From Bolinopsis microptera (taxonomy: Eukaryota; Ctenophora; Tentaculata; Lobata; Bolinopsidae), in the NCBI RefSeq assembly GCF_026151205.1, contig NC_087074.1, positions 9,457,226-9,521,225 on the forward strand: 64,000 nt of DNA, in the 5' to 3' direction. A model generated the notes under the pieces. The model saw only the letters and a program-made list of their open reading frames with translations, was not told where the DNA came from and made no database searches. Position numbers and translations under genes: made by a program. Below are positions 12,601 through 62,543 of this stretch, piece after piece; position 1 is the stretch's first letter; the number at the start of each line of letters is the position of its first letter.

Positions 12601-15600
12601 ACTGAGGAGGAAGACTGAGGAGGATGAGGACGAGGACTAAGGATGAGGACTAGGAGGATGATAACGAGGGCTAAGGAAGAGGACTGATTAAGATGAGAAG
12701 GAAGAGGAGAAGGAGGAGGAGGACTGCGGAGGAGGAGGATAAGGAGGAGAATGAGGAGGAGGAGGAGGGGGAGGAGGATGACTCAGGAGGAGGATTCAGG
12801 AGGAGGAGGAGGACTCAGGAGGAGAACTCAGGAGGAGAACTGAAGAAGAGGAGGAGGACTGATGATGAGGAGGAGAAAGAGGACTCCAAAGGAGGACTCA
12901 GGAGGAGGAAGAGGAGGAGGACTCAGGAGGAGGAAGAGGAGGAGGAGGAGGACTAATGACGAGGACGAGGACGACTAGTGGAGGACTGAGGATGAGGACT
13001 GATGAGGAGGAGAAGGAGGAGGACTTAGGATTAGGATGATGAGGAGGAGGACTGAGGAGGACTGAGGAGGAGGATGAGGAGGAGGAGACTGAGGAGGCGG
13101 AGGAGGAGGCGGAGGATGATGAGGAGGAGGACTGAGGAGGACTGAGGAGGAAGACTGACGAGGACGAGGACTAAGGACGAGGAGGAGGACGACGACGACT
13201 GAGCAGGAGAACTGATTAGGAGGAGAAGAAAGAGGAGAAGGAGGAGGAGGAGGAGGAGTCAGGAGGAGGAGGACGACTAAGAGTAGGACTCAGAGGGGAC
13301 TGAGGAGGAGGGTGAGAAAGAGGATGAGGACGAGGACGATTATGAGGAGGACAGAAGATGAGGACTGATGAGGAGGAGAAAGAGGAGGAGGACTAAGGAA
13401 GAAGAGGAGGATGACTGAGGAGGAGGAGTCAGGAGGAGGAGGACGACTATGAGGAGGACTGAGGAGGGCTGATGGGGAGGAGAACGAGGAGGATGAGGAG
13501 GAGAAAGGAGGAGGTGGAGGAGGAGGAGGAGGAGGAGAAGGAGAAGGAGGAGGACTGGGAGTAGGACTGAGGAGGAGGAGGGGACTGAGGAGGAGGGTGA
13601 GGAGGACGAGGAGGACGAGGAGTCATGAAGAGGACTGAAGAGGACTCAGGAGGAGAAGGACTCAGGAGGAGGAGGAAGACTTAGGAGGAGGAGGAGGACT
13701 GATGAGAAGGAGGAGGAAGACTATGGAGGAGGAGGAGGACATCTAAATGTTTTGTCTGTTTTTGTCTGTTTTTGTCTGTTTTTGTCCGCCCTACTTTTTG
13801 TCCGTTTTTAACATATAGGGTACCGAACGGACACAAAACATGATCCCCCAGCCAAGCATGTGTTACGATACAAATGTACTTGACTATACATTTAAGGTGC
13901 AGTGTACTAGTGATATTATGGTATGTTTAAAGACGGGACCACAAAATGACAAAATATAACCCGGTACCTAGTGTTGTACTAATACATAATAACAAGTAAC
14001 AGGGATAAAATTAATGAGCAGAAACAATCGATCTCACGTCAAGAGGCCAAAGCACCTGGGTCTGGGAGTACATGACAACTTCAACTAGTAGTGAGCATAC
14101 TAGCCCCTGCAGTGGAAAAACACATAAAACATACTATTGGAATGTCCAATTGGTTCGTTTTCTCATAACAATATAGGGCAATTCCACGGTAAGGTTCCAC
14201 TTGGTGAAAATGAAAAATGTTAAGATAGGCACCTAATTTTGGTTAAAATATGTTCATTAGACTCTTAACCTTACAAGTCAACAAAAGTTTTTTGTTTCAT
14301 ATTGCGTTAACTTTTGATTTTTCTCATTCAAAGGAACACTACTCGGAAATGAAAAAAATCGTTCAAATTTTCAAAGGGCCATAGTTTGGGTATGCAGCAA
14401 TATTTCTCTATGAAATTCCATACACTTAGGCATATGCATAAGAATGAAAGCTATGCAAAGTTTTAAAACCGTTACTCAAATACTTTTTCTAAAAAATTTC
14501 CACAAAGATGGTGTCACGTCCGTCACAAAATTAAGCAAAAAAGTTTTTTCAGAGCCACATAGTGCTATTTATATTCAAAAAACCACTGTAACCTATCTCT
14601 TCTGAAGGTAAGGGAGTACCGTAGAAATTATCAGGCTTGTATCTTTTAAGAAAAAATTTTTGTAAGGGTGGTCCCAACTTGTCGCGTCCGTCACATTTTT
14701 TTGAAAATGCTCCAAAAAATCTTAAAACAGACTTTAAAGGCATTTTTCTTAAAGCTGAGGCCGTCCTCAACAAAACTATGTCGTCAAATCAAAAATTAGA
14801 CAGAAAATGACCGAGTTATGTATAATTTTGTATATGCCCATATATGGGCATACGGCTCACTTTTAGCCATTTTTATCCATATTTCCATTATTTTGACTAA
14901 AACCAAGACAAATAGAAGTCAAATAAGGTTGGATTGTGTTGACTATGTTGACTAGACTATCAAATAACATCATATGCAATTCAATAATTTAATTTACTGA
15001 TTTTTTGCCATTTTATTTGCTTACAACTTTTTCAGAGGTAAAAGGCACAAAAAATGGACTTAACCCTATTTTCGCATATTTTTGAAGTAAAAATTCAATA
15101 TCTTCCACATTTTAAACACTAAAGTAATGAAACTTTTAGGAGATGGTCTCAACAGTATGATGCGTTGAACAGTGATGAATGTTTTACCAGAGTTATAAAT
15201 TTGTTCAAGTAGAGAAATAATTGATGCCCCTAGACTGATACCCTAGCGTATGCCCAAAATGGACGATTTTGGCTGTTGCAGACCTCTTGGGGGTATTTGA
15301 GGCCTAAAAATTGGCATGAATACAGAGTAGATGTCACTGAACAAGATAAAAGTGTCAAGTGGAAGATTTGGAAAAATTGAAAAAAAACGTGTGTCCGTCA
15401 CAGTCACGTCTGTCACAATTTGAAAATGGCGCCACGCAAACAAAAATTGAGCAATCTCTAAGAAAATGGCATCTCAGAAATCCCTAAACCTTCTTCTATC
15501 ATTGTAATTCCAAATTAGATACAATAGATAACTTTTTGAGATAAATTTGGGTACCATCTGAGTAGACACCCAAAAAAGGTGTCAGAGGAACCCCAATAGA

Positions 15601-18600
15601 CGTTAGTCACTAACTGACGGACGTAGCCTCCCATTAGGGAGGTAAAGTGGGTGCCCCAACATAAAAAATAAATTAAAAAAAAAGACACCCAAAAAAAGTG
15701 TCATATTTACGTCACGTCCGTCACAGGGGTGCTATCTCAGAAAGTAATAATGGTAGGGGTCTGAAATTTTCACACAACCTGTAGAAAGGTTAAATGTGGA
15801 CTAATAAACAGTTGGAGCTGATAAATAAACAACATCTCGAGTACAACATTCGTTTGAACTTTAAAAAACAGCAAAATCGTGGTGTCCGTCACGGTGGAAT
15901 TGCCCTATAGCATATGTAGGGGTTCTGGTTGAATTATATCACTTCTGAGAGGTTTTAGAGATCGATTCTGTAAATTTCTCAATTTAGGAGAACTCAGGAG
16001 GAGAACTGAAGAAGAGGAGGAGGACTGATGATGAGGAGGAGAAAGAGGACTCCAAAGGAGGACTCAGGAGGAGGAAGAGGAGGAGGACTCAGGAGGAGGA
16101 AGAGGAGGAGGAGGAGGACTAATGACGAGGACGAGGACGACTAGTGGAGGACTGAGGATGAGGACTGATGAGGAGGAGAAGGAGGAGGACTTAGGATTAG
16201 GATGATGAGGAGGAGGACTGAGGAGGACTGAGGAGGAGGATGAGGAGGAGGAGACTGAGGAGGCGGAGGAGGAGGCGGAGGATGATGAGGAGGAGGACTG
16301 AGGAGGACTGAGGAGGAAGACTGACGAGGACGAGGACTAAGGACGAGGAGGAGGACGACGACGACTGAGCAGGAGAACTGATTAGGAGGAGAAGAAAGAG
16401 GAGAAGGAGGAGGAGGAGGAGGAGTCAGGAGGAGGAGGACGACTAAGAGTAGGACTCAGAGGGGACTGAGGAGGAGGGTGAGAAAGAGGATGAGGACGAG
16501 GACGATTATGAGGAGGACAGAAGATGAGGACTGATGAGGAGGAGAAAGAGGAGGAGGACTAAGGAAGAAGAGGAGGATGACTGAGGAGGAGGAGTCAGGA
16601 GGAGGAGGACGACTATGAGGAGGACTGAGGAGGGCTGATGGGGAGGAGAACGAGGAGGATGAGGAGGAGAAAGGAGGAGGTGGAGGAGGAGGAGGAGGAG
16701 GAGAAGGAGAAGGAGGAGGACTGGGAGTAGGACTGAGGAGGAGGAGGGGACTGAGGAGGAGGGTGAGGAGGACGAGGAGGACGAGGAGTCATGAAGAGGA
16801 CTGAAGAGGACTCAGGAGGAGAAGGACTCAGGAGGAGGAGGAAGACTTAGGAGGAGGAGGAGGACTGATGAGAAGGAGGAGGAAGACTATGGAGGAGGAG
16901 GAGGACATCTAAATGTTTTGTCTGTTTTTGTCTGTTTTTGTCTGTTTTTGTCCGCCCTACTTTTTGTCCGTTTTTAACATATAGGGTACCGAACGGACAC
17001 AAAACATGATCCCCCAGCCAAGCATGTGTTACGATACAAATGTACTTGACTATACATTTAAGGTGCAGTGTACTAGTGATATTATGGTATGTTTAAAGAC
17101 GGGACCACAAAATGACAAAATATAACCCGGTACCTAGTGTTGTACTAATACATAATAACAAGTAACAGGGATAAAATTAATGAGCAGAAACAATCGATCT
17201 CACGTCAAGAGGCCAAAGCACCTGGGTCTGGGAGTACATGACAACTTCAACTAGTAGTGAGCATACTAGCCCCTGCAGTGGAAAAACACATAAAACATAC
17301 TATTGGAATGTCCAATTGGTTCGTTTTCTCATAACAATATAGGGCAATTCCACGGTAAGGTTCCACTTGGTGAAAATGAAAAATGTTAAGATAGGCACCT
17401 AATTTTGGTTAAAATATGTTCATTAGACTCTTAACCTTACAAGTCAACAAAAGTTTTTTGTTTCATATTGCGTTAACTTTTGATTTTTCTCATTCAAAGG
17501 AACACTACTCGGAAATGAAAAAAATCGTTCAAATTTTCAAAGGGCCATAGTTTGGGTATGCAGCAATATTTCTCTATGAAATTCCATACACTTAGGCATA
17601 TGCATAAGAATGAAAGCTATGCAAAGTTTTAAAACCGTTACTCAAATACTTTTTCTAAAAAATTTCCACAAAGATGGTGTCACGTCCGTCACAAAATTAA
17701 GCAAAAAAGTTTTTTCAGAGCCACATAGTGCTATTTATATTCAAAAAACCACTGTAACCTATCTCTTCTGAAGGTAAGGGAGTACCGTAGAAATTATCAG
17801 GCTTGTATCTTTTAAGAAAAAATTTTTGTAAGGGTGGTCCCAACTTGTCGCGTCCGTCACATTTTTTTGAAAATGCTCCAAAAAATCTTTAAACAGACTT
17901 TAAAGGCATTTTTCTTAAAGCTGAGGCCGTCCTCAACAAAACTATGTCGTCAAATCAAAAATTAGACAGAAAATGACCGAGTTATGTATAATTTTGTATA
18001 TGCCCATATATGGGCATACGGCTCACTTTTAGCCATTTTTATCCATATTTCCATTATTTTGACTAAAACCAAGACAAATAGAAGTCAAATAAGGTTGGAT
18101 TGTGTTGACTATGTTGACTAGACTATCAAATAACATCATATGCAATTCAATAATTTAATTTACTGATTTTTTGCCATTTTATTTGCTTACAACTTTTTCA
18201 GAGGTAAAAGGCACAAAAAATGGACTTAACCCTATTTTCGCATATTTTTGAAGTAAAAATTCAATATCTTCCACATTTTAAACACTAAAGTAATGAAACT
18301 TTTAGGAGATGGTCTCAACAGTATGATGCGTTGAACAGTGATGAATGTTTTACCAGAGTTATAAATTTGTTCAAGTAGAGAAATAATTGATGCCCCTAGA
18401 CTGATACCCTAGCGTATGCCCAAAATGGACGATTTTGGCTGTTGCAGACCTCTTGGGGGTATTTGAGGCCTAAAAATTGGCATGAATACAGAGTAGATGT
18501 CACTGAACAAGATAAAAGTGTCAAGTGGAAGATTTGGAAAAATTGAAAAAAAACGTGTGTCCGTCACAGTCACGTCTGTCACAATTTGAAAATGGCGCCA

Positions 18601-19405
18601 CGCAAACAAAAATTGAGCAATCTCTAAGAAAATGGCATCTCAGAAATCCCTAAACCTTCTTCTATCATTGTAATTCCAAATTAGATACAATAGATAACTT
18701 TTTGAGATAAATTTGGGTACCATCTGAGTAGACACCCAAAAAAGGTGTCAGAGGAACCCCAATAGACGTTAGTCACTAACTGACGGACGTAGCCTCCCAT
18801 TAGGGAGGTAAAGTGGGTGCCCCAACATAAAAAATAAATAAAAAAAAAAAGACACCCAAAAAAAGTGTCATATTTACGTCACGTCCGTCACAGGGGTGCT
18901 ATCTCAGAAAGTAATAATGGTAGGGGTCTGAAATTTTCACACAACCTGTAGAAAGGTTAAATGTGGACTAATAAACAGTTGGAGCTGATAAATAAACAAC
19001 ATCTCGAGTACAACATTCGTTTGAACTTTAAAAAACAGCAAAATCGTGGTGTCCGTCACGGTGGAATTGCCCTATAGCATATGTAGGGGTTCTGGTTGAA
19101 TTATATCACTTCTGAGAGGTTTTAGAGATCGATTCTGTAAATTTCTCAATTTCCCGATTTTTCCGATTCCGATTTTGGCCTCATCAACCCTCATATCGGA
19201 CATCGGGTTGGACCCCCCCAATCTGTAGATTGTCTTAGTTACCATAAATAAGGAACATCAGAAATACTAAATATATACTACTATATATAGTAGTATTATA
19301 TACTATATATACTAAACTATTCATTCTATTCATGTTACCTGTTTCTTTAGCAAGCTGGTAGAACTTATCCCTACGGGCCTTTCCAACCTTCTGCTTCTTA
19401 CCCAT
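6679..19405 (-). CDS. FTSJ3: FTSJ3/SPB1-type rRNA 2'-O-methyltransferase, complete, 16 exons, 809 aa
   Basis: Nucleolar pre-rRNA 2'-O-methyltransferase and 60S maturation factor. Minus-strand exons: 19339-19405, 11346-11520, 10958-11115, 10722-10840, 10464-10538, 10232-10342, 9920-10046, 9644-9740, 9433-9532, 9045-9239, 8672-8816, 8383-8513, 7784-8202, 7384-7561, 7043-7202, 6679-6851. They total 2,430 nt with every phase consistent. The start sits in a strong context (CCACCATGG). The FtsJ domain has SAM motif DLCAAPG (residues 50-56), NDGAPNVG with D117, and a K31-D117-K157-E192 tetrad. Acidic and lysine-rich middle segments follow, then the SPB1 C-terminal domain ([23 protein letters not shown]). 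Length is close to yeast and human orthologues. Intron 1 is about 7.8 kb and filled by a transposon; the others are short. The intron at 7203-7383 begins GC, not GT. Exon 11 uses an AAG acceptor. Confidence 0.97.
12230..13740 (+). repeat. GGA-rich (GAGGACTGAGGAGG-like) satellite array
   Basis: About 1.5 kb of degenerate GGA/GAGGACT units, almost entirely purine on the plus strand with regular CT interruptions. It ends in a short TTTTGTCTG tandem at about 13,747-13,785. Part of it is repeated at 15,986-16,908 by the larger duplication. The open frame of Arg/Glu runs inside is a by-product of the repeat. Confidence 0.95.
14176..15905. mobile_element. Non-autonomous DNA transposon C, copy 1 (4 bp TSD TATA)
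   Basis: Terminal inverted repeats start GGGCAATTCCAC at the left and end GTGGAATTGCCC at the right, flanked by TATA on both sides (14172-14175, 15906-15909). There is no coding capacity. The interior carries the motif CGTCCGTCAC or close variants at about 14,517, 14,689, 15,393, 15,404 (CGTCTGTCAC), 15,713 and 15,883, the last directly abutting the right inverted repeat. Confidence 0.8.
17342..19071. mobile_element. Non-autonomous DNA transposon C, copy 2
   Basis: Same element as at 14176-15905, displaced by 3,166 bp. It arose with the larger tandem duplication rather than by a separate insertion, because its flanks are duplicated too. Confidence 0.8.
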
Positions 19406-26402: not shown

Positions 26403-27107
26403 GCTGTATATTTAGAAACGGATGTAGAGAAAAAGGAGGAAACCTCTACTAATTTGATACTATCTGCCCAATACTGCAAAGAACTAAAAGACCTCAGAAT
26501 GTTCCTAGAATCTAAGAAACAGACTATTGAACACATAATTGGTGAGAACGTATCCATCACTATCGCAAATAGAAGAGGTAGTAACATAAGTGACCAACTC
26601 TTCAAACGAAGAAAATTCGCCACTACACCAGCAGAATACGTGAAACAGTCTAGAAGAGACAACAACACCTCATCACAAGCATGTAAAAGACCAAGATGCC
26701 TGACTTGCAAACTCACGGAAAACAACACTGATGGGAAATTTATTGTTAACAATCAGATATGTGAACTAGATATGAGTTTAAATTGTAGTGATGATAATGT
26801 TATATACGTAGCTCAATGTAAGTTATGTTCTAGTGGCTTCTATTTTGGCCAGACATGGCTACCCCTCAATATACGCATGAATAACCACAGAGCAGCTTTC
26901 AAACCAGAACATTATAATAAGTCATCATTAGCTCTGCACATTCACGATGTGCATTATGAAATGTTAGATGATAAACTTTCTAGTTTTAACTTTGGGATTA
27001 TCCGTAAATGCAATAGAGATGACCTGAACATGTATGAGTATATGTTTATCGAGAGATTTAAAGCCAGGATAATTGGTTTAAATAGGAGCAAGGTCAGTGG
27101 CAATTAA
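26403..27107 (+). pseudogene. Penelope-like element fragment: zinc finger plus GIY-YIG endonuclease
   Basis: Open for 234 codons from just after a stop at 26,400-26,402; the first ATG is at 26499. It encodes a basic linker, a Cys cluster CKRPRCLTC, then VIYVAQCKLCSSGFYFGQT...LNIRMNNHR, the pattern of the GIY-YIG nuclease with its preceding CCHH-type finger at the C-terminus of Penelope-like retroelements. This includes the Y...YFGQT core, the catalytic Arg helix, the HR pair and a later Glu (YMFIERF). No reverse transcriptase domain is found upstream, so this is a 5'-truncated copy. Absence of stops suggests a young insertion, or less likely a retained host gene. Confidence 0.72.
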
Positions 27108-43997: not shown

Positions 43998-45789
43998 TTA
44001 ATTGTTCTTATTCTGTTTCCTTATCGCAATCTCGACGCCTGCACTCGTACAAAACGAGACTACACAAAAACCAAGCATCATGTATCCACCCTGTTCGTAT
44101 GTAAGGTACTCCATCGCCAACAGGGCAACCAAATGACCAACCCTGTTAAAGGCCGTCCAAAGACATAACCAAATTGTCGTACCTTTTGATTTGGAGGAAG
44201 CGCTCATTTCTCTTCTCGCAAGTTTTACTTGGACTTCCTCAAAGGCAAATAGGGCAGCCAATGTGCACATTTGATTTGAAAGGCCCTGAAGCAGTGTGGA
44301 AATATAAGCGAAGATAACCACGTTATCATACAGAAATGTTAACTTTGGGTTGGGGAAGAGGATGAAAACTCCGATTGCTGAGAGGAATGCTGAAAATGCC
44401 ATGATCTGAAATGGTGTTGCCCAGCCTTTCTGGATGATGTAACCGGATACGATCGATCCTGCAAACCTTGCCACGTAAAGGATAAAAAGATATGTCCCAC
44501 CCTGAGAAATACTCACTTCAAACGTGTCGAAAAGGTATGGAGTGGTTATTGCTGAGGTAAATCCAACCAGTGCCTCAAGAATGCTGTAGGAAATAATGGG
44601 AATAACGATTAATGGAGAAAGCCCCTTGGCCTTAGGCTCGGTCTCCTCGTTGGTGTTCTGGGCTGTTGTGATATCAGCTTCCTCTGTTGCCTCATAATTA
44701 GGTGGATCTGCCACATTTGTGTTGGTTATAACAACATCCTCACTACCAACTTGATCACCAGTCATCTCATTTTCCAAGTCTCCAAAACTATTCTCAACCG
44801 TTTCATCAGAAGATTTATTTTTAGTGTTAACATAAACTGGCAGAGAATTCTTTGGCAGAACCACAAGCTTGTACGAAAACAGGACAAGACATATACCCCC
44901 AGCAATGAGCAGAGTAGAGGTAAATCCAAAGTGATCATACAGAACTCCCCCAATAAGAATAGCAGTGGAGCCCCCAGAATGATAACCACTGTTGGTGAGC
45001 CCTATAGTAAGTTTAACATGGTCAGGGAACCAAACTCTGCAGCCCTCCACCACACCTTTACACGCCAGGAAACCCACGTAACCTTGTACAGCTCGTAGGA
45101 TTAGTAGGAGGGTGATTGTTAATGAGTTGTACTGCTCTGGTATCAGCCCCACCAGTCCCTGTCCTGCAGGAAGGAATTATAAATACCATAATGAATAATG
45201 ATGTGTGATTTTTAGATTGAAATTTTTAATGGATTGATATTTAACCAGTGTCTTTTGATACGTGTTCTTAAGATAAGAATGCACCTTAAAACTATCTTGT
45301 TTTTCTTGTCAAATACTCTGCTAATTGTAACAATTACCCATCATCTGTACCACGTTAGCTGCCACAAAAGTGACCTGGTATTTCCACAGGGTGACTTTTC
45401 TCTCATGGATGAGATAGTGTTGCATGTCAAACAGCATGTTGAAAAGATAGCCAACTCCTGGCATCATTCCAAACAGGCCCACCAGAAAGCTGCTTATACC
45501 TGTGTATGTTAGAAGTTGTGTTAACTTCTATATATGGTTAATCTAATGGTTATTATTCGTCAGTTTGAAGTTCAAGCTGACGCACCTCAGAAAATGACAA
45601 AATTGACGTTTTATCCCAGAAAAGGAAAGGAAAATTAAGTTGTATCTAGTCATCTTAACCATTTAAACACATACCTCTGTCGAGTAAATACTTGACGTAG
45701 AAGGATTGCGTATTAACCGAACTGCCTGATATAGCAAGAGGCATGAGGTACACTGCCAGCAGTACCATCAGACCCAGTTTTGAGAACAT
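43998..45789 (-). CDS. MFS transporter, tandem copy 1, three exons, 480 aa
   Basis: Exons 45675-45789, 45338-45499 and 43998-45163 (1,443 nt, in phase). About 12 hydrophobic segments: one in exon 1 (LGLMVLLAVYLMPLAIS), two in exon 2, the rest in exon 3, with a long acidic central loop (about residues 210-270) between the two halves. Motifs: LLILRAVQGYVG, then GLTNSGYHSGGSTAILIGGVLYDHFGF, which lines up with the antiporter-type motif of DHA/SLC18-like MFS proteins. Closest in pattern to SLC18B1-like carriers; the substrate is unknown. The ATG at 45789 is preferred because an acceptor (TTCAAGCAG) precedes it, but the frame stays open to about 45,843 in all three copies. Unit-specific changes are seen, for example in the central loop. 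Confidence 0.85.
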
Positions 45790-47474: not shown

Positions 47475-48720
47475 TTTTAAACTATTTTCACAACTACAAT
47501 TAAATACATTTATTGAGGATGTCGAAAAAGAATGTCAGTCAAGCAAGTTCGCAAGTAATGCAGCACTAATTGGAAAAGGTGTGTGGGGGTGATGCGGGGT
47601 GGCCGGGTCGTGTACTCAGAAGACTAGCCATGGACTCCTGAAGCAAGTTGAGTAATTATCATTTTTCTACAATCAGCATCAGCACCGCCATAAACATCAT
47701 CATTCAAATCCACGTCCACGTGACCCTACCCTGACCCTACTTTTAACCCTGCGAACTTGCTTGGCTACAGTCTGGATATCCTTAAATATTTGTATATATA
47801 TATGATACTGCTGTATGTAGTGTTGAAATGTATGGTGACTACGGTCTGCACTTGAAATAGAAGAGCCTCAATAAAATAGCAGTTATTATAAGTAATGGTT
47901 TTGTGAACCACTGCAAATAGCAAATTTACTAAAACGTATTGATATGTAGTTACTTTATTGCTCATTTAATGTATGACAAATTCAAATTTAAATTATACTT
48001 TAAATTTATACTGATATCTTTGATTGTCATAACTCTAAAAGTATTAACAGATGAATATTAATTTTTTTAAATGTTTAAAATTGCACTTGAGGTTTAGCTG
48101 TGCTTTTATCATTATGCTGTCCTATTCGTGTTAGAGTGAGAAGATTATTTAACCCAAGACAGTTATTCAATGGAAATCTAAAAAGTAAAGATATCCACCT
48201 GCAGTCTTGCAAAATCCCTCTCCCCATTTTTTCCCCTGTTATCTGCCTCCCCACACATTTTTTATTAAAAAATTTATATATAATACCCGCAGACTATTTA
48301 CCCTTTATATGTGTACATTCATTCAGATTTGAGATTCTAACTAATATTTGTGTGGGATTGTTTATTGATAAAGTTGAAAATTTACATTGAATTTGAATTG
48401 ATATCCCTTCCTTACCCCAACCCCTCCGATCCTTACCCCAGCCCCTTCCCCCTCATTGCACATTCACTCCATTTTACATATCATCCAAAACAATTGACGT
48501 TTCGATATACTTTATTCATTTTCAATCAACAATCGTACTTAATAACTCATTAACTAGCCTTAAATATACTGGTGATTCCTGCTAAGCTTAACGTGATCAC
48601 TGATAAATTTATGTTACTCATCTCACTGCCGCCTAGCTTGTTTCAGGTTTACTGGTCTGGTTCGATGGGTCTGACCCTGGCCCCCTCCGCTCACCCCTGT
48701 ACTCCGCATCCATTATCATC

Positions 48721-50889
48721 ATGAAAAAGACCGACAAGAAACTCGACAGGAGATCGGACCTCTTTAATTCCACGTCTCGAGGGTGCAAGTCAGCTGGATC
48801 CACCCCTATTTCAAGCCCTGTTTTAAGCCGAAAAGTCACTAGCAGAATACATAATAGGAACACAGAGCCAGATGCAGATCTAACATCTGATGGAGACTTT
48901 GTAGATGTAGAGAGCAACGAACCAGCATCGATCCCAGGAACGCTACTCTCTAAGTGTCCCTGCTTTGTAGAGTCAAAGAACCCTGCAATCTTATGTGTTA
49001 CTTGTAAGCAGACCTTCCATTCTAACTGTGTTAACCTTGCTGGCCTCACAGCAACTTCTCTAAAGAAGCTCAGCACTTCCTGGAAGTGCCCGGACTGCTT
49101 TATCTTTCCTTACACAAGAAGATTGAAGGAGGAGGAAAAATCCAAAGCGTTAACAGAATTCTTTAGCAATATTTCTAAGATATCAAAGTGTAATGAGGAA
49201 CTCAAAGAAAGTACAACAACCATAGAGTTCTTCAACGAGCATATCAAACACCTCATACTCAAGGAGGACAGTTGTTTCAAAGAACACTCCAAAAGAACAG
49301 AACGATTAGTGACTGGAATTGAAGATATCACTGAAGACATAGCTTCTATCAAGGGTGTACTTACGAAAGTAAAGGAGAGTGGCTCAGCTCTTGAGACAAC
49401 CAGCAACTCTCTCAAACAGGAGATTGATGGCCTGAAGGACTCTCTCAAAAATATACCTATGACAGAGCAACCTCCGACTAACAGCAGTACTTTCGATCAT
49501 GTTGACAACCTGATGACCCAGATCAAAGTGCAATTGGAAAAGATCAATGATCATGTATGTCCCTCAACGTCCACACAGAACTTTGATGAAGGTGAACTAC
49601 GTTACAATGAATCTATCCTTATGACCCCTAACACTACTTCTCCTCACTTTGCTGCATCTCAAATTCCTGAAGGCCCTGCATGTGACCCTTATCTAACTTA
49701 TCAGGAAGATATAGTGCCTGTTGAGCTTCACAGCAAACTTATAAAGCTGCTGGAGGACAATAGTGCGGATTTTTCTTCGGTTGGTGGCAGCAGGGATGTT
49801 GTCTACTTTGGTGAACATGGATACTGGTACACAGGAGCCTATCATCAGGCAAAGGAAACTCCACCGGAGATACAAGATCTTTTGGACTGTGTGCGTCCCT
49901 CTCTCCCCAATAGGAAGAGCTGGCTGAACTCTTGCCTTGTTACAAGATATACAGGCAATAGTAGCCATATCCCCCAACACTGCGACAATGAGGTTCTTAT
50001 TGACCCAGAATCGATAATAGTCACTGTGTCCCTTGGTGAAGAACGCACAATAAAGTTCACACATAAGTCGACTGAAAAGTCCTTAAAGCTCAAAGATGGA
50101 AGTGTATACGTGATGTCCAGAATGTCCCAAGAAATCTGGAATCATGGTATTGAACCCCTCGCTAATGAAGAAGATGGCGAGGAATCTGAAGAGAAAACTT
50201 CTGTGAGGTACAGCTTTACCTTTAGGCATATTGCGCCTTTCTACAAAAATAGCACAGTGTTAATTGGAGACTCAAACACTAAGTACATTAAATTTGGTAA
50301 AGATGTTGGAACTCTAGGAAAATGGGTTCCCGGTAAGCGAATGTGGGCTGCTAAAATCGACGATATTCCTGCTCCCAAAGACATAGGCCCCTTTCGGAAC
50401 ATTGTTATACATACGGGAATCAATGATATTCGAGATGATTCCAACAGACCATCCACTAGAACACTTATTGCTAAGCTTAAGAAGAAATGTTGTGAAATTC
50501 AGCAATTTTATCCTAATAGTAAAGTTCATATTAGTTTACTCTTGCCCACCAAATCACAGTTTGTTAACTCACGTATAGGGGAGTTAAACAGTTTAATTGT
50601 AGACATGGTTTATAATAGGAAAAACATGTTTATTATAGATAACTCTGTACTAGGTTCTGTTAACGGATGTATGCCCTCTAAGTATGGTAGATTCTCACGT
50701 GATGGCACACCATTGGTCAATGATGTTGTTCATCTCGGGAGAGAAGGCCTGAAAATATTTTGTATGAACATAAAACGGTGTATTGTACAACGTGGTGGAA
50801 GTCAGTCCACGGAAAGATTTAAAGGTGGAAATGGTGACTATAGGAGTGCCCTAAGTAGGGGTAGTACGGGTGATATCTTACCGATATGA
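48721..50889 (+). CDS. LINE ORF1: PHD-like finger + coiled coil + AlkB dioxygenase + SGNH esterase, 722 aa
   Basis: Domains in order. PHD-like zinc finger at residues 79-126, with Cys/His ligands C79, C81, C92, C95, H100, C103, C123, C126. Coiled-coil-like helix about 135-275. AlkB-type 2-oxoglutarate/Fe(II) dioxygenase about 330-503, with N403 and Y410, the H420-C-D422 metal pair, third ligand H475 (WNHGI), and R496-Y-S-F-T-F-R502 matching the 2OG-binding RxNxTxR pattern. SGNH-type esterase about 511-685, with GDSN (S518), HTGINDI and the D668-V-V-H671 dyad. A basic Gly/Arg tail ends it. CR1-family ORF1 proteins are known with PHD and esterase domains; the AlkB insertion between them is the unusual part. 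AlkB enzymes oxidatively remove N-methyl groups from nucleic acids, so a role on the element RNA or cDNA is plausible but inferred. It overlaps ORF2 by 4 nt. Confidence 0.9.
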   Translation: MKKTDKKLDRRSDLFNSTSRGCKSAGSTPISSPVLSRKVTSRIHNRNTEPDADLTSDGDFVDVESNEPASIPGTLLSKCPCFVESKNPAILCVTCKQTFHSNCVNLAGLTATSLKKLSTSWKCPDCFIFPYTRRLKEEEKSKALTEFFSNISKISKCNEELKESTTTIEFFNEHIKHLILKEDSCFKEHSKRTERLVTGIEDITEDIASIKGVLTKVKESGSALETTSNSLKQEIDGLKDSLKNIPMTEQPPTNSSTFDHVDNLMTQIKVQLEKINDHVCPSTSTQNFDEGELRYNESILMTPNTTSPHFAASQIPEGPACDPYLTYQEDIVPVELHSKLIKLLEDNSADFSSVGGSRDVVYFGEHGYWYTGAYHQAKETPPEIQDLLDCVRPSLPNRKSWLNSCLVTRYTGNSSHIPQHCDNEVLIDPESIIVTVSLGEERTIKFTHKSTEKSLKLKDGSVYVMSRMSQEIWNHGIEPLANEEDGEESEEKTSVRYSFTFRHIAPFYKNSTVLIGDSNTKYIKFGKDVGTLGKWVPGKRMWAAKIDDIPAPKDIGPFRNIVIHTGINDIRDDSNRPSTRTLIAKLKKKCCEIQQFYPNSKVHISLLLPTKSQFVNSRIGELNSLIVDMVYNRKNMFIIDNSVLGSVNGCMPSKYGRFSRDGTPLVNDVVHLGREGLKIFCMNIKRCIVQRGGSQSTERFKGGNGDYRSALSRGSTGDILPI
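50886..50889 (+). promoter_or_regulatory. ATGA stop-start overlap between ORF1 and ORF2
   Basis: The ORF2 ATG (50886-50888) overlaps the ORF1 TGA (50887-50889). Such overlaps allow termination-reinitiation in some bicistronic LINEs. No other device for ORF2 translation was identified. Confidence 0.8.
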
Positions 50890-53800
50890 CCTCAATAAAC
50901 TTCAATATTACAAGAGAGAGATGTCCAGGTTGTGATAGCAATGTACTAAGCCATCATAAAATCATAATATGTGAGAGTTGCGATACAATATATCATGCCA
51001 AATGTTCTGAACAGAGTTTTAAATTTGATCATGTTAAACAAATGTGGCACTGCAGTCAGTGTTACGCCTTCAAATCCCAAAGGTACAATCCTTTTAACTC
51101 AATTATTTATGACAAATATGATCCCAACACTGTAGAAAGAGACGAGGATATGGAGACTATTTCAAACATTCTAAAAGACTGTAGGTATTATAACATGACA
51201 AATTTCAACCGGCTGTCAAAAAACATACTTAACCATAACAAGCCGTTTATATCTATTGTGTTTAACAACATTGATGGGAACGCATCTAACTTTGACAGCT
51301 TTATTACTGATATGAGTCAATATGATGAGAAATTTGCAGTTATTGCGCTAGCTGAAACAAACATTAATGAGGAAAATAAAGATCTATACAAAATTGATGG
51401 TTACAGCAGTGAGTACAACTCTAAAACTGATGGGAAAAAGAAAGGTAGTGGCCTTGGTATATATATTGACAATCAGTACCAATACAGCCGAATCGAAAAG
51501 TTATGTAAATGCTCTGACAATCTTGAAACACTTTTCGTTGAGATCACTAACACAGAGGTTCCACAGATTGCTGGTGTTGTTTACAGGCCCCCTAGTGGTG
51601 ATATTCAAGATGCACTTGCTGAGCTTGATGTGTTGATGAAATTTCTACCGTCTAATAATGTAGCCTTGACAGGTGACTTCAATGTTGATCTTTTGGCCCA
51701 GGGACGAAACATAGCTGAATTTGAACAAACTATCTACAGTAACAATTTAATCCCTTTGATATCGATTGCCACCCATGCCAAGCCGGGTTGCAATGAAAGC
51801 TTAATTGATAATATTTTAGTGAACTCTACTGAGCGTGTGTTAGGATCTGGAATTCTTGAATCCAAGATTTCCCATCATAACCCCATCTTCTGTTTCATAT
51901 CGTGTAATATTAAAGAGAGTTCAAATACTGCCAAACTTAAACCTAAGTATGATTACTGTGAGTCTAATATAGAAAGTTTCCTTAATGATATTGGAAAGGA
52001 TATCTACCAATCGAACTTTTCGTATGATGAGGAAGGTTTTGAAAAATTTGTCGAAACTGTCCACGAAAAAATCGAACTGAATTTCAAAGTGGACTGTACT
52101 GCTGGTTTTCAATCAAAACGCAATAGATTGATGAATCCATGGATCACTTCTGCGTTAATTAAATCTGTGTTTACTAAAGGCTTTCACTACAAGCGATGGA
52201 AGGCTTCGTGTACCAAAATCAACCCATTAGGTGAGGAAACTTTATATCTTAAGTATAAGGAGTATCGTTCTATCTTAAACAAAGCTATAAAATCTGCGAA
52301 AAAAGCCCACTATGGGAAAAAATTTGAACTTGCTAAAGGAAATATTAAAAAAACCTGGGAATTGATCAACGAACTCAGGGGTAAATCTAAAAAAGATATA
52401 AAAGCATCATTCTTAATTGATGGTAGAATTGTAACTGAACGCCGTGAGATTGCCAACGGATTTAACATCTACTTCTCGTCTATTGCTCGTAATCTTAATT
52501 CAAAAGTTCAATCTTCTGTACCATCTCGTACGGTAACTGATGGCAATTTCAATAAAACGAAGTTTAAACAATACCTCAAGGGCAGAGAAAGAATAGTGAA
52601 CTCTTTTTTTCTCAGCCCCTGTGACGAGGAAGAGATAAGTAAAATTATTGGTAGCCTTGAAAATGGGAAGGCAAGTGATATCTCTGTTAGAGTCTTGAAA
52701 AAGAGTGTAAATTATCTGTCTGGTCATATCTCTAGATTCTTTAATTGGTTCTTGGACAATGGGGTCTTTCCAAACAAGCTTAAAACGGGCTCTATTACAC
52801 CAATTTATAAAAAAGGAGACTCACGATGCCTTGATAACTATCGACCTGTTTCTACATTACCGATATTTGGCAAAATACTTGAAAAAATAATTTATAATAG
52901 GTTATATAATTACCTCAGTGCTATGAACGTGATTTATGATCGACAATTTGGTTTTAGAAAACAACACTCAACATCTCATGCCGTAAACTATTCTGTCAAT
53001 AAAATACTTAATGAGATTGAACAGAAAAATCATGTAATTGGAATATTTATTGATCTAAGTAAAGCATTTGACACAATTGAGCACGATAAACTCCTGCATA
53101 AACTTGAACACTATGGAGTAAGAGGTATTGCACTAAAAACTCTTGCTAGCTATCTAACAAACCGTAGCCAAGTAACTTCTTTTCAAACTGAAAAATCGGA
53201 CAAGTGTTCAGTTGAGTATGGTGTACCCCAGGGGTCAGTGTTAGGACCTCTACTATTTCTGATTTATATAAATGATATTGTGAGCTCCTCAAGTTTGGCT
53301 GAATTCGTCCTGTTTGCTGATGATACAAATATTTTTGTGATAGGTCGTTCAGCACAGGAAGCTTTTGAAAAAGCTAATCATGTAATGAAACAGGTCAGTA
53401 ACTATATGGAGTCTAACAAGTTACATATAAATGCAGGGAAAAGTTGTTTTATGCATTTTCAGCCAGGTTTGTCAAGAGCAACACAGACCTGTGCTAGAAC
53501 ACGGCCCTTTAACAGGAATCTAACGATTTCAATAGATGGCAAAAAGCTAGAAAAAGTTCAATGTACAAAATTTCTTGGGGTGATAATAGACGAACAGCTA
53601 TGTTGGGAACCACATCTTAATCATTTATCTTTAAAGCTGAACTCCAGTATTGTATCGATTAAGAGAATTTGCAAATTCATTCCCAAATCTGAATATTTGA
53701 AACTATACAATGCTCTTTTTATGTCACATCTTAGCTATTGTATAAGTTGCTGGGGTGGGATCCCTAAACATAAGCTGAATAAAATCTTTGCTATTCAAAA

Positions 53801-54317
53801 ACGATGTATACGACTGCTATTTGGTAACATTCCCAATTTTGATCATAAAGAATACTACTTAACCTGTGCACGTTCAAGAACTTATAACGAACATATGGCT
53901 AAAAAGAACTACTGTCTTGAACACACTAAACCGCTATTCACTGAGCAGAAAATTATGAACCTGGAGAATCTGCACATGTACCATACATTTATGGAGCTAT
54001 TCAAAATTCTTAAATTTGATGTCCCCCAGTCGATTAAAGATCTTTTCAAGTTCTGTCCTAGAAATGAAAAACTTCGTCTGATTGTCCCATTACTGAGGTT
54101 AGATATCTCCCAACAGAACTTTTTGTACACCTCTACGAAAATATGGAATGATCTCATCCCCTATGTATTCGAAATATGTGATGCTAATGTAGATGGGATA
54201 ATAATCCCGGGGTCTTCCAAAAATTCAGACTTATCAGCCTCGTCAGGTATTATTAAATCTAACCTTAAAAAGCACTTGCTATCCCTCCAAAATCGAGGTG
54301 ACCCTAATATATGGTAA
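50886..54317 (+). CDS. LINE ORF2: PHD-like finger + APE endonuclease + reverse transcriptase, 1143 aa
   Basis: Begins with its own PHD-like finger (C13, C16, C29, C32, H37, C40, C56, C59). The apurinic-type endonuclease spans about 121-340, with AETN (E157), YRPPSG, GDFNVDLL (D264, N266), SLIDNIL (D308) and a final S329-H330-H331-N-P-I. The usual family motif there is S-D-H, so the catalytic Asp is replaced by His. The reverse transcriptase spans about 630-860, with DLSKAFD (723-729), GVPQGSVLGPLLFLIYINDI and the F-A-D-D active site (810-813). The C-terminus has the Cys/His-poor tail ending SLQNRGDPNIW. The enzyme would nick target DNA and copy its RNA onto it. The RT motif set puts it in the CR1/jockey group. 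Confidence 0.95.
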   Translation: MTSINFNITRERCPGCDSNVLSHHKIIICESCDTIYHAKCSEQSFKFDHVKQMWHCSQCYAFKSQRYNPFNSIIYDKYDPNTVERDEDMETISNILKDCRYYNMTNFNRLSKNILNHNKPFISIVFNNIDGNASNFDSFITDMSQYDEKFAVIALAETNINEENKDLYKIDGYSSEYNSKTDGKKKGSGLGIYIDNQYQYSRIEKLCKCSDNLETLFVEITNTEVPQIAGVVYRPPSGDIQDALAELDVLMKFLPSNNVALTGDFNVDLLAQGRNIAEFEQTIYSNNLIPLISIATHAKPGCNESLIDNILVNSTERVLGSGILESKISHHNPIFCFISCNIKESSNTAKLKPKYDYCESNIESFLNDIGKDIYQSNFSYDEEGFEKFVETVHEKIELNFKVDCTAGFQSKRNRLMNPWITSALIKSVFTKGFHYKRWKASCTKINPLGEETLYLKYKEYRSILNKAIKSAKKAHYGKKFELAKGNIKKTWELINELRGKSKKDIKASFLIDGRIVTERREIANGFNIYFSSIARNLNSKVQSSVPSRTVTDGNFNKTKFKQYLKGRERIVNSFFLSPCDEEEISKIIGSLENGKASDISVRVLKKSVNYLSGHISRFFNWFLDNGVFPNKLKTGSITPIYKKGDSRCLDNYRPVSTLPIFGKILEKIIYNRLYNYLSAMNVIYDRQFGFRKQHSTSHAVNYSVNKILNEIEQKNHVIGIFIDLSKAFDTIEHDKLLHKLEHYGVRGIALKTLASYLTNRSQVTSFQTEKSDKCSVEYGVPQGSVLGPLLFLIYINDIVSSSSLAEFVLFADDTNIFVIGRSAQEAFEKANHVMKQVSNYMESNKLHINAGKSCFMHFQPGLSRATQTCARTRPFNRNLTISIDGKKLEKVQCTKFLGVIIDEQLCWEPHLNHLSLKLNSSIVSIKRICKFIPKSEYLKLYNALFMSHLSYCISCWGGIPKHKLNKIFAIQKRCIRLLFGNIPNFDHKEYYLTCARSRTYNEHMAKKNYCLEHTKPLFTEQKIMNLENLHMYHTFMELFKILKFDVPQSIKDLFKFCPRNEKLRLIVPLLRLDISQQNFLYTSTKIWNDLIPYVFEICDANVDGIIIPGSSKNSDLSASSGIIKSNLKKHLLSLQNRGDPNIW

Positions 54318-54711
54318 CTAATCTATATTATATCTCAAATTCTACATCTGGTACGGCTCTGCACACATGATATCTCTCTCTGCCATGAAACATGGCTAAC
54401 CTTTCAAACTATGATTTAAAACATAAACCTAAACTAAAACTCAACTGGGCTCTCCTATGTCACCAAACTAGACCAATAAGCAATTTTAGCTTAGATAATT
54501 ATATTTTTCTATATTTGTATAATAAGTATTATATTGACGTAGTGGATGGTTGAGGGGGTTTCAAGCACAGGTCACTCTCAAATCCTAAAGATAAGCAGTG
54601 GCCTTCGGCACTGGAAACCTCTTCAAACCTCCCCTGATTTATTTATTATTGATATTGTTTGATTGTGCCGTAAAAATAAATATTTGTTTTATTAAATATT
54701 TGTTTTATTAG

Positions 54712-55795: not shown

Positions 55796-57600
55796 TTAAT
55801 TGTTCTTATTCTGTTTCCTTATCGCAATCTCAACACCTCCACTCATACAAAACGAGACTACACAAAAACCAAGCATCATGTATCCTCCTTGTTCGTATGT
55901 AAGGTACTCCATCGCCAACAGGGCAACCAAATGACCAACCCTGTTAAAGGCCGTCGAAAGACATAACCAAATTGTCGTACCTTTTGATTCGGAGGAAGCG
56001 CTCATTTCCCTTCTCGCAAGTTTTACTTGGACTTCCTCAAAGGCAAATAGGGCAGCCAATGTGCACATTTGATTTGAAAGGCCCTGAAGCATTGTGGAAA
56101 TGTAAGCGAGGATAACCACGTTATCATACAGAAATGTTAACTTTGGGTTGGGGAAGAGGATGAAAACTCCGATTGCTGAGAGGAATGCTGAAAATGCCAT
56201 GATCTGAAATGGTGTTGCCCAGCCTTTCTGGATGATGTAACCGGATACGATCGATCCTGCAAACCTTGCCACGTAAAGGATAAAAAGATATGTCCCACCC
56301 TGAGAAATACTCACTTCGAACGTGTCGAAAAGGTATGGAGTGGTTATTGCTGAGGTAAATCCAACCAGTGCCTCAAGAATGCTGTAAGAAATAATGGGGA
56401 TAATAATTAATGGAGAAAGCCCCTTGGCCTTAGGCTCGGTTTCCTCGTTGGTGTTCTGGGTTGTTGTGATATCAGCTTCCTCTGTTGCCCCATAATTAGG
56501 TGGATCTGCCACATTTGTGTTGGTTATAACAAAATCCTCACTACCAACTTGATCACCACTCATCTCATTTTCCAAGTCTCCAAAACTAGTCTCAACTGTT
56601 TCATCAGAAGATTTATTTTGAGGGTTAACATAAACTGGCAGGGAATTCTTTGGCAGAACCACAAGCTTGTACGAAAACAGGACAAGACATATACCCCCAG
56701 CAATGAGCAGAGTAGAGGTAAATCCAAAGTGATCATACAGAACTCCCCCAATAAGAATAGCAGTGGAGCCCCCAGAATAATAACCACTGTTGGTGAGCCC
56801 TATAGTAAGTTTAACATGGTCAGGGAACCAAACTCTGCAGCCCTCTACCACACCTTTACACGCCAGGAGACCCACGTAACCTTGTACAGCTCGTAGGATT
56901 AGTAGGAGGGTGATTGTTAATGAGTTGTACTGCTCTGGTATCAGCCCCACCAGTCCCTGTCCTGCAGGAAGGAATTATAAATACCATAATGAATAATGAT
57001 GTGTGATTTATAGATTGAAATTGTTTATGGATTGATATTTCAGTAGTGTCTTTTGATACGTGTTCTTAAGATAAGAATCCACCATAAAACTATCTTGTTT
57101 ATCTTGTCAAACTACTCAGTTAATTGTAACAATTACCCATCATCTGTACCACGTTAGCTGCCACAAAAGTGACCTGGTATTTCCACAGGGTGACTTTTCT
57201 CTCATGGATGAGATAGTGTTGCACGTCAAACAGCATGTTGAAAAGATAGCCAACTCCTGGCATCATTCCAAACAGGCCCACCAGAAAGCTGCTTATACCT
57301 GTGTATGTTAGAAGTTGTGTTAACATCTAATGATTAATCTAATGGTCATTATTCCTCAGTTTGAAGTTCAAGCCGACGCACCTAAGAAAATGACAAAATT
57401 GACGTTTGATCCCAGCAACTAAGGTTATAAATAAAAGGAAAATTAAGTTGTACTATCTAGTCATCTTAACCATTTAAACACATACCTCTGTCGAGTAAAT
57501 ACTTGACGTAGAAGGATTGCGTATTAACCGAACTGCCGGATATAGCAAGAGGCATGAGGTACACTGCCAGCAGTACCATCAGACCCAGTTTGGAGAACAT
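55796..57600 (-). CDS. MFS transporter, tandem copy 2, three exons, 480 aa
   Basis: Exons 57486-57600, 57137-57298 and 55796-56961; identical exon lengths to copy 1 and fully open. Differs from copy 1 at scattered sites, many in the acidic central loop (for example NPQNKSSDETVETSFGD) and in the last helix (CMSGGVEIAIR against CTSAGVEIAIR). Same membrane topology and motifs as copy 1. All three copies being intact suggests they are functional or very young. Confidence 0.87.
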
Positions 57601-59508: not shown

Positions 59509-59932
59509 AATAAAACAAATATTAATAAAACAAATACTTATTTTTACGGCACAATCAAACAATATCAATAATAAATAAATCAGGGGAGGTTTGAAGAGGT
59601 TTCAAGTGCCGAAGGCCACTAATTATCTTTAAGATTTGAGAGTGACCTGTACTTGAAACACCCTCAACCATCCACTACGTCAATATACTTATTATACAAA
59701 TATAGAAAAATATAATTATCTAAGCTAAAATTGCTTATTGGTCTAGTTTGGTGAAATAAGAGATCCCAGTTGAGTTTTAGTTTAGGTTTAGGTTTTAAAT
59801 CATAGTTTGAAAGGTTAGCCATGTTTCATGGCAGAGAGAGATAGCATGTGTGTAGAGCCGTACCGGATGTAGAATTTGAGATATAATATAGATTAGTTAC
59901 CATATATTAGGGTCACCTCGATTTTGGAGGGA
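59509..59932 (-). mobile_element. 5'-truncated copy of the same LINE, 424 bp
   Basis: The reverse strand reads the last codons of ORF2 (SLQNRGDPNIW, stop), then the 3' untranslated region and the ATTTGTTTTATTA tail repeats. It corresponds to about 54,284-54,711 of the full element with scattered differences. It is inserted in host frame X of unit 2 at GGTATT/TTGG, where unit 1 reads GGTATTGGGGAACG (47,404-47,417). Confidence 0.92.
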
Positions 59933-60139
59933 TATTGGAGAACGTCTTGGCTTTACATCTTCAAATGCTCCAGTAATCAATCCACCGTGGACCACGAAAT
60001 AGTGGCACTGTTTACTCACTTCTAGCGGGATGTGGCCACAAGTTACTTTAACGGGAAAAACTCCCTTTTTCTTTAGTCTACACACTGCACACGAGAAGCG
60101 ATCAATCTTTAGCGACTCAGTTGATGTCTCTCGCTCCAC
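59897..60139 (-). pseudogene. Host frame X (unit 2) fused in frame to the LINE ORF2 C-terminus
   Basis: Reads VERETSTESLKIDRFSCAVC, then HIPLEVSKQCHYFVVHGGL and VKPRRSPI and then passes directly into SLQNRGDPNIW and the LINE stop codon. The original host ending is stranded at about 59,395-59,508. A 17-18 bp deletion upstream (about 60,157) removes the CAG acceptor seen at 54,873 in unit 1, so expression is doubtful. Confidence 0.7.
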
Positions 60140-60738: not shown

Positions 60739-62543
60739 TTAATTGTTCTTATTCTGTTTCCTTATCGCAATCTCGACACCTCCACTCATACAAAACGAGA
60801 CTACACAAAAACCAAGCATCATGTATCCTCCTTGTTCGTATGTAAGGTACTCCATCGCCAACAGGGCAACCAAATGACCAACCCTGTTAAAGGCCGTCGA
60901 AAGACATAACCAAATTGTCGTACCTTTTGATTCGGAGGTGGCGCTCATTTCCCTTCTCGCAAGTTTTACTTGGACTTCCTCAAAGGCAAATAGGGCAGCC
61001 AATGTGCACATTTGATTTGAAAGGCCCTGAAGCAGTGTGGAAATATAAGCGAAGATAACCACGTTATCATACAGAAATGTTAACTTTGGGTTGGGGAAGA
61101 GGATGAAAACTCCGATTGCTGAGAGGAATGCTGAAAATGCCATGATCTGAAATGGTGTTGCCCAGCCTTTCTGGATGATGTAACCGGATACGATCGATCC
61201 TGCAAACCTTGCCACGTAAAGGATAAAAAGATATGTCCCACCCTGAGAAATACTCACTTCGAACGTGTCGAAAAGGTATGGAGTGGTTATTGCTGAGGTA
61301 AATCCAACCAGTGCCTCAAGAATGCTGTAGGAAATAATGGGGATAATAATTAATGGAGAAAGCCCCTTGGCCTTAGGCTCGGTTTCCTCGTTGGTGTTCT
61401 GGGTTGTTGTGATATCAGCTTCCTCTGTTGCCCCATAATTAGGTGGATCTGCCACATTTGTGTTGGTTATAACAAAATCCTCACTACCAACTTGATCACC
61501 ACTCATCTCATTTTCCAAGTCTCCAAAACTAGTCTCAACTGTTTCATCAGAAGATTTATTTTGAGGGTTAACATAAACTGGCAGGGAATTCTTTGGCAGA
61601 ACCACAAGCTTGTACGAAAACAGGACAAGACATATACCCCCAGCAATGAGCAGAGTAGAGGTAAATCCAAAGTGATCATACAGAACTCCCCCAATAAGAA
61701 TAGCAGTGGAGCCCCCAGAATAATAACCACTGTTGGTGAGCCCTATAGTAAGTTTAACATGATCAGGGAACCAAACTCTGCAGCCCTCTACCACACCTTT
61801 ACACGCCAGGAGACCCACGTAACCTTGTACAGCTCGTAGGATTAGTAGGAGGGTGATTGTTAATGAGTTGTACTGCTCTGGTATCAGCCCCACCAGTCCC
61901 TGTCCTGCAGGAAGGAATTATAAATACCATAATGAATAATGATGTGTGATTTATAGATTGAAATTGTTTATGGATTGATATTTAAGCAGTGTCTTTTGAT
62001 GCGTGTTCTTAAGATAAGAATCCACCATAAAACTATCTTGTTTATCTTGTCAAACTACTCAGTTAATTGTAACAATTACCCATCATCTGTACCACGTTAG
62101 CTGCCACAAAAGTGACCTGGTATTTCCACAGGGTGACTTTTCTCTCATGGATGAGATAGTGTTGCACGTCAAACAGCATGTTGAAAAGATAGCCAACTCC
62201 TGGCATCATTCCAAACAGGCCCACCAGAAAGTTGCTTATACCTGTGTATGTTAGAAGTTGTGTTAACATCTAATGATTAATCTAATGGTCATTATTCCTC
62301 AGTTTGAAGTTCAAGCCGACGCACCTAAGAAAATGACAAAATTGACGTTTGATCCCAGCAACTAAGGTTATAAATAAAAGGAAAATTAAGTTGTACTATC
62401 TAGTCATCTTAACCATTTAAACACATACCTCTGTCGAGTAAATACTTGACGTAGAAGGATTGCGTATTAACCGAACTGCCGGATATAGCAAGAGGCATGA
62501 GGTACACTGCCAGCAGTACCATCAGACCCAGCTTGGAGAACAT
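60739..62543 (-). CDS. MFS transporter, tandem copy 3, three exons, 480 aa
   Basis: Exons 62429-62543, 62080-62241 and 60739-61904, exactly 4,943 bp from each copy 2 boundary. The protein differs from copy 2 at only a handful of residues (for example SSFLVG to SNFLVG in exon 2, ATSESKG for ASSESKG, and VVIFAYISTLL as in copy 1). It is intact. The copy 1-like residues at some sites suggest gene conversion among units. Confidence 0.87.

Follow-up and report, generated by a model that had tools for sequence, protein, structure and literature searches.

An apparently autonomous LINE of the ctenophore Bolinopsis microptera with AlkB-type dioxygenase and SGNH hydrolase domains in its ORF1

The first open reading frame (ORF1) of long interspersed nuclear elements (LINEs) is built in several ways. 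A survey of 448 Jockey-superfamily elements describes PHD, RRM, CCHC, L1-type Tnp22, coiled-coil, zipper/zinc finger and esterase domains, with the esterase confined to two vertebrate subgroups (PMC4120745); the word AlkB occurs neither in that paper nor in its Table 1 of the 448 elements. For the ZfL2-1 element, the esterase and its catalytic residues have been described together with the transposon-specific residues His191 and Ser228, and a membrane role for LINE esterases has been proposed, in a paper whose main text contains neither "AlkB" nor "oxygenase" (PMC3905857). Esterase ORFs are also described in other retroelements, in papers whose accessible text lacks the word AlkB (PMC6431247, PMC5408684). 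AlkB is known from another kind of retrotransposon, as an ORF of Ty3/Gypsy elements, reported as recent, that the authors' genome screen detected in Phalaenopsis alone; its product demethylates N6-methyladenosine (m6A) in single-stranded RNA in vitro, keeps RNA binding after loss of catalysis, and has been proposed to act against host control (PMC9289625). Here we describe a LINE from the ctenophore Bolinopsis microptera whose ORF1 joins an AlkB-type 2-oxoglutarate- and Fe(II)-dependent dioxygenase to an SGNH hydrolase. It lies in a stretch of 64,000 nucleotides (assembly GCF_026151205.1, contig NC_087074.1, positions 9,457,226 to 9,521,225, forward strand), called the window below and numbered from its first letter. 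Among the papers listed from the open-licence PMC literature, a scope that Repbase Reports and Dfam lie outside, there was no AlkB-bearing LINE (passages of PMC12859917 held nothing relevant), and as far as searched this ORF1 is an undescribed variant of the esterase-type LINE ORF1. Its features are as follows.

48721..50889, + strand: ORF1, 722 residues, with PHD-like finger, coiled coil, AlkB and SGNH domains (open reading frame, Pfam, AlphaFold)
48955..49098, + strand: C4HC3 PHD-like finger, residues 79-126 (Pfam PHD 1.1e-4, below cut-off)
49114..49449, + strand: long helices, presumed coiled coil, residues 132-243 (AlphaFold helices 132-180 and 182-243)
49675..50238, + strand: AlkB 2-oxoglutarate-Fe(II) dioxygenase, residues 319-506 (H420, D422, H475, R496, R502)
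50248..50790, + strand: SGNH hydrolase, residues 510-690 (S518, N568, D668, H671)

The identities of the AlkB and SGNH domains are close to certain. Residues 366-502 match the AlkB-type oxygenase family of Pfam at 9e-19, and the HxD...H iron ligands, the R-x5-R arginines and the AlkB fold are all present; the complete AlkB dioxygenase that the first-pass annotation had read from the letters is thus borne out by sequence profile and by fold, and a non-AlkB fold was not seen. The closest relatives by both approaches are ALKBH2 and ALKBH3, and identity to solved ALKBH2, ALKBH3 and bacterial AlkB structures is 18-25%. Human ALKBH2 and ALKBH3 and bacterial AlkB share the fold, the HxD...H ligands and the R-x5-R pair with this domain, but they are stand-alone enzymes. 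Structure matches in BFVD include plant RNA virus polyproteins and giant-virus AlkBs. The SGNH domain shows the Ser, Gly, Asn and His/Asp blocks and the corresponding fold; a fold comparison was needed because its single sequence had no match among PDB sequences and its profile had only a weak one (0.0087). H564 stands four residues before N568, as H191 stands before N195 in ZfL2-1, and S605 is, by position only, a candidate counterpart of ZfL2-1 S228. The ZfL2-1 structure 4c1b is absent from the profile matches; H564 and S605 are each kept in 119 of 120 relatives.

These relatives come from a protein search with ORF1 that returned 296 sequences at E up to 1e-3, the best 120 of which (40-90% identity) were examined; they include three proteins of another ctenophore, Mnemiopsis leidyi (P0005, P0006 and P0043). 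H420, D422, H475 and R496 are invariant in all 119 relatives having the residue (one of the 120 is gapped), and R502 is invariant in 120/120. Loss of the ligands in most copies, which had been named as an outcome that would count against an AlkB enzyme, was not seen among these proteins, which are relatives as distinct from copies in the genome: 119 of 120 keep the ligands, and P0043, the exception, has no AlkB stretch. Y370, which we place at the site where ALKBH2/3 have an aromatic residue stacked on the damaged base, is kept in 118/118. Conservation extends to the SGNH residues, with GDSN and N568 kept in 120/120, H671 in 119/119 and D668 in 117/119, and the two motifs occur in the order AlkB, SGNH in 118/120; in P0037 (506 residues) the SGNH motif was not found. 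P0043, a Mnemiopsis gene model, has finger, coiled coil and SGNH domain, with the AlkB stretch missing between the last two, possibly as an artefact of predicted splicing, a splice variant or a domesticated form.

The finger behaves differently. The C4HC3 pattern occurs within the first 250 residues of 61/120 relatives, in 59 of the 65 with at least 650 residues as against 2 of the 41 with 500-649, although starts predicted too far downstream, or contigs that break off, may account for part of the shortfall in shorter relatives (14/120 are shorter than 500 residues). Across the 59 finger-bearing relatives of at least 650 residues, mean differences were 0.50 for AlkB, 0.47 for SGNH and 0.51 for the finger, and 0.72 for the coiled coil (849 of 1711 pairs), 0.83 for the linker and 0.79 for the N-terminus. 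Of 42 members scanned, all have a Pfam 2OG-FeII_Oxy_2 match of 0.01 or better, 18 a PHD match and 5 a Lipase_GDSL_2 match. Because many relatives keep AlkB without a finger, including 4 of 10 full-size ORF1s linked to an ORF2 (the other 6 have one), AlkB-SGNH looks, from these sequences, like the fixed core of ORF1 and the finger like an option. The original observation is confirmed, AlkB and SGNH being intact, and its PHD-AlkB-SGNH architecture is refined as regards the finger, which falls below the Pfam cut-off and is missing from many relatives. Neither an RRM nor a CCHC knuckle was detected by Pfam in ORF1 or among the families listed for the 42 members.

Directly downstream lies a second frame, ORF2, the start of which overlaps the ORF1 stop as ATGA.

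50886..54317, + strand: ORF2, 1143 residues, with PHD-like finger, endonuclease and reverse transcriptase (reading frame, Pfam)
50922..51062, + strand: C4HC3 finger, residues 13-59 (Pfam PHD 0.001, below cut-off)
51300..51860, + strand: endonuclease domain, residues 139-325 (Exo_endo_phos 2.3e-4, 21.4 bits, below the cut-off of 24.5)
52809..53588, + strand: reverse transcriptase, residues 642-901, with FADD at 810 (RVT_1 3.6e-39)

The top solved match of ORF2 by sequence is human L1 ORF2p (1.3e-17), followed by a further RNA-directed DNA polymerase and by R2 proteins; 89 of the 120 ORF2 relatives examined (the best of 2769 matches) show the C4HC3 pattern within their first 120 residues, and neither ORF1 nor ORF2 has a Pfam match to an integrase or gag at E up to 1. 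Partnership of the two ORFs elsewhere is shown indirectly, by pairing matches through exact coincidence in the size of their source contigs. This gave 11 ORF1/ORF2 pairs on one contig able to hold both, against a mean of 0.935 (maximum 5) over 200 shifted comparisons; a twelfth coincidence (3969) was dropped as too short for both ORFs, about one of the 11 may be due to chance, and one (P0122/P0126, contig 68612) rests on a 127-residue AlkB fragment. In the window's element and the ten other pairs, P0122/P0126 being left out, Mantel tests gave distance correlations of 0.63 between AlkB and reverse transcriptase, 0.70 between SGNH and reverse transcriptase and 0.78 between AlkB and SGNH (p 1e-4 each), and of 0.52 between endonuclease and reverse transcriptase (p 0.0013). 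Such correlations between sequences are as expected if the fused ORF1 has travelled together with its ORF2.

The two ORFs lie within an insertion that can be delimited, since a gene unit with ORFs of 255 residues recurs in the window, its repeats being 95-97% identical in DNA, and a neighbouring unit preserves the empty site.

47476..54710, + strand: whole LINE insertion, about 7.23 kb (delimited by the empty site of the adjacent tandem unit)
47476..48720, + strand: 5' leader of 1.2 kb (interval from insertion point to ORF1 start)
54540..54636, + strand: stable stem-loop in the 3' untranslated region (fold of 54530-54709)
54678..54709, + strand: 3' tail, a 16-base unit twice in tandem, AAATATTTGTTTTATT (direct reading)
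59509..59936, - strand: sister copy of this LINE, 5'-truncated so that its 3' end remains (95.8% identity over 431 columns, inverted)
59937..60050, + strand: empty, pre-insertion site of the full-length copy (spanned by the joined flanks of that copy, which differ from it by 2 bases where they meet)

Once joined, the flanks of the full-length copy equal the empty site of the neighbouring unit except at the junction, at a handful of substituted positions and at an indel of 18 bases farther right. The target duplication is 2 bases (range 2-4, the tail ending TTA), so that the ends of the insertion are uncertain by at most 4 bases. The truncated sister copy sits in the neighbouring unit and ends in a similar doubled tail, and the other (first) unit, which lacks it, represents the sister's own empty site; most simply, the LINE family moved after the tandem units had duplicated. 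The 3' fold (54530-54709) reaches -49 kcal/mol with a z of -3.92, none of 200 shuffles being equally stable, and the stem-loop is a candidate for the structure that the ORF2 reverse transcriptase recognises. Three near-identical 255-residue ORFs stand in tandem at 43998-44765, 55796-56563 and 60739-61506 (- strand), the last two 4.9 kb apart; by eye they are hydrophobic and transporter-like, and the two tested had no Pfam match above cut-off.

With an ORF2 bearing reverse transcriptase and endonuclease (the latter below cut-off), no direct repeat longer than 150 bp between its ends in the window self-comparison and hence no long terminal repeats (LTRs), a 5'-truncated copy and an empty site, the element is apparently an autonomous and recently mobile LINE; the reading of the 722-codon frame as a LINE ORF1 is upheld. 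PHD-like fingers, the SGNH domain, the short target duplication and the tandem 3' tail, and these solely, suggest a place in the CR1/L2 group of the Jockey superfamily. CR1/L2 elements commonly have PHD domains, and the esterase-type (type IV) members, such as ZfL2-1, likewise combine a coiled coil or zipper with SGNH in the ORF1 of a LINE that has endonuclease and reverse transcriptase; the AlkB domain is the difference. The orchid elements share a retrotransposon-encoded AlkB-family dioxygenase, with demethylation in vitro demonstrated for the orchid protein, but they are plant LTR elements with gag-pol and integrase, features absent here, and carry an ALKBH5-like m6A eraser in a separate ORF, whereas here AlkB is fused to SGNH. 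Lepidopteran TRAS LINEs, which reportedly carry a virus-derived RNA helicase (PMC5563155), likewise gained an RNA-handling enzyme domain, but a helicase in ORF2 rather than a dioxygenase in ORF1. Plant RNA viruses (Alpha/Betaflexiviridae, Closteroviridae) are also RNA-borne selfish replicons with an AlkB of their own, in their case in a polyprotein and with no reverse transcription; we know of no SGNH partner for it.

The AlkB domain alone as protein query gave 5 matches among 29 candidates, which leaves a host ALKBH2/3, a bacterium and a virus as candidate donors of the domain. Scans of viral contigs with ORF1, ORF2 and a distant ORF1 subset gave 31, 30 and 33 pattern matches with no confirmed relatives. 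A scan of genome contigs found 11 loci among 72 pattern matches, all resembling stand-alone bacterial AlkBs of 191-247 residues from stop to stop with no GDS motif; they were retrieved with a pattern containing H[RSC]D[DN]E, and the signature they share with the LINE domain is not independent evidence.

In the working proposed here, modifications that impede reverse transcriptases, such as N1-methyladenosine (m1A) and 3-methylcytidine (m3C), would be removed before copying. The ORF1 protein would oligomerise on the RNA of the element through its coiled coil. Its AlkB domain, using Fe(II), 2-oxoglutarate and oxygen, would strip m1A, m3C and similar bases of their methyls, and the ORF2 enzyme would then copy the cleaned template during target-primed reverse transcription. 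PMC12140624 names m1A and m3C among such impediments and reports that m1A hinders the non-LTR R2 enzyme; after AlkB treatment most 3' tRNA halves were captured more, while intact tRNAs changed modestly. From the intact domains we infer, with good motive, catalysis, a methylated-base substrate, the element's own RNA as target and oligomerisation, and we put the chances that the AlkB domain clears methyl blocks from that RNA ahead of ORF2 copying at about even. The chief reason not to assume activity lies in the N-x-Y motif, which is common ahead of the HxD in the AlkB family but is not treated here as one of its defining features: residue 408, an Asn in ALKBH2, ALKBH3 and bacterial AlkB (kept in 11/11 bacterial AlkBs), is Thr in the present element (49942-49944), and in 119 relatives it is Thr in 88, Ser in 17, Asn in 11 and His in 3. 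Tyr410 is kept in all 119. The Thr or Ser present in 105/119 may tune cofactor binding.

Among other explanations, it is possible, though rather unlikely, that AlkB strips host regulatory m6A or m1A from the element's RNA and lets it escape host control. The ALKBH5 fold also matches the ORF1 domain, at a lower Z (17.6), but ALKBH2/3 are nearest by profile and fold, and these are associated with m1A and m3C and not with m6A. The orchid Gypsy AlkB acts on m6A in single-stranded RNA in vitro (PMC9289625), yet mammalian m6A is reported to aid L1 and ALKBH5 to suppress it (PMC7873242), and erasure of m6A need not benefit a LINE.

An ALKBH2-like action on DNA, at the target site or on new cDNA, for lesion repair or mark removal and perhaps guided by the PHD-like fingers, is improbable, given that many relatives keep AlkB with no finger and that LINE ORF1 proteins are proteins of RNA particles. 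Quite improbable, too, is that AlkB is kept for binding nucleic acid in place of RRM domains or zinc knuckles, with catalysis not needed. The lack of Pfam-detected RRM or CCHC domains, the Thr/Ser at 408 in most members and the binding of RNA by a catalysis-free orchid protein (PMC9289625) fit it, but it would not require three iron ligands and both arginines to be invariant. The reading of ORF1 as a piece of host gene that was captured, or as joined up by the assembly, with no role has nothing in its favour and is so improbable that it can be set aside, and host gene fusion, chance motif and assembly artefact were rejected, in view of the empty site, the 296 relatives, the conserved active sites and the same-contig ORF2 linkage.

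Two further observations concern other parts of the window. At 12820-19152 a stretch of 3167 bp is duplicated head to tail with 99.9% identity, each copy beginning in a purine-rich GAG-type repeat, and the duplication is either recent or an assembly artefact. At 26499-27107 (+ strand) an ORF of 202 residues shows a CxxC...YxGQT...R...HR pattern, which looks like that of a Penelope-type GIY-YIG nuclease and has no Pfam support.

The removal of methyl blocks from the LINE's own template has a counterpart in laboratory practice, where AlkB is added so that the LINE-type R2 reverse transcriptase better reads methylated RNA (PMC12140624). If a LINE has made such a step part of its own particle, this would suggest that methyl damage or marks on RNA truly limit retrotransposition, and, if true, the AlkB-LINE would be a test system for methyl limits and a natural pair of reverse transcriptase and demethylase. 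It parallels, in fused form, the AlkB gains of plant RNA viruses, cited in PMC9289625, and of orchid LTR elements. Tentatively, and somewhat short of even confidence, this may be an apparently old and widespread LINE lineage in which AlkB repair of methyl-blocked template RNA within the particle became fixed in ORF1, giving a reverse-transcribing element RNA repair of its own, with AlkB-SGNH, rather than PHD or RRM, as its core.
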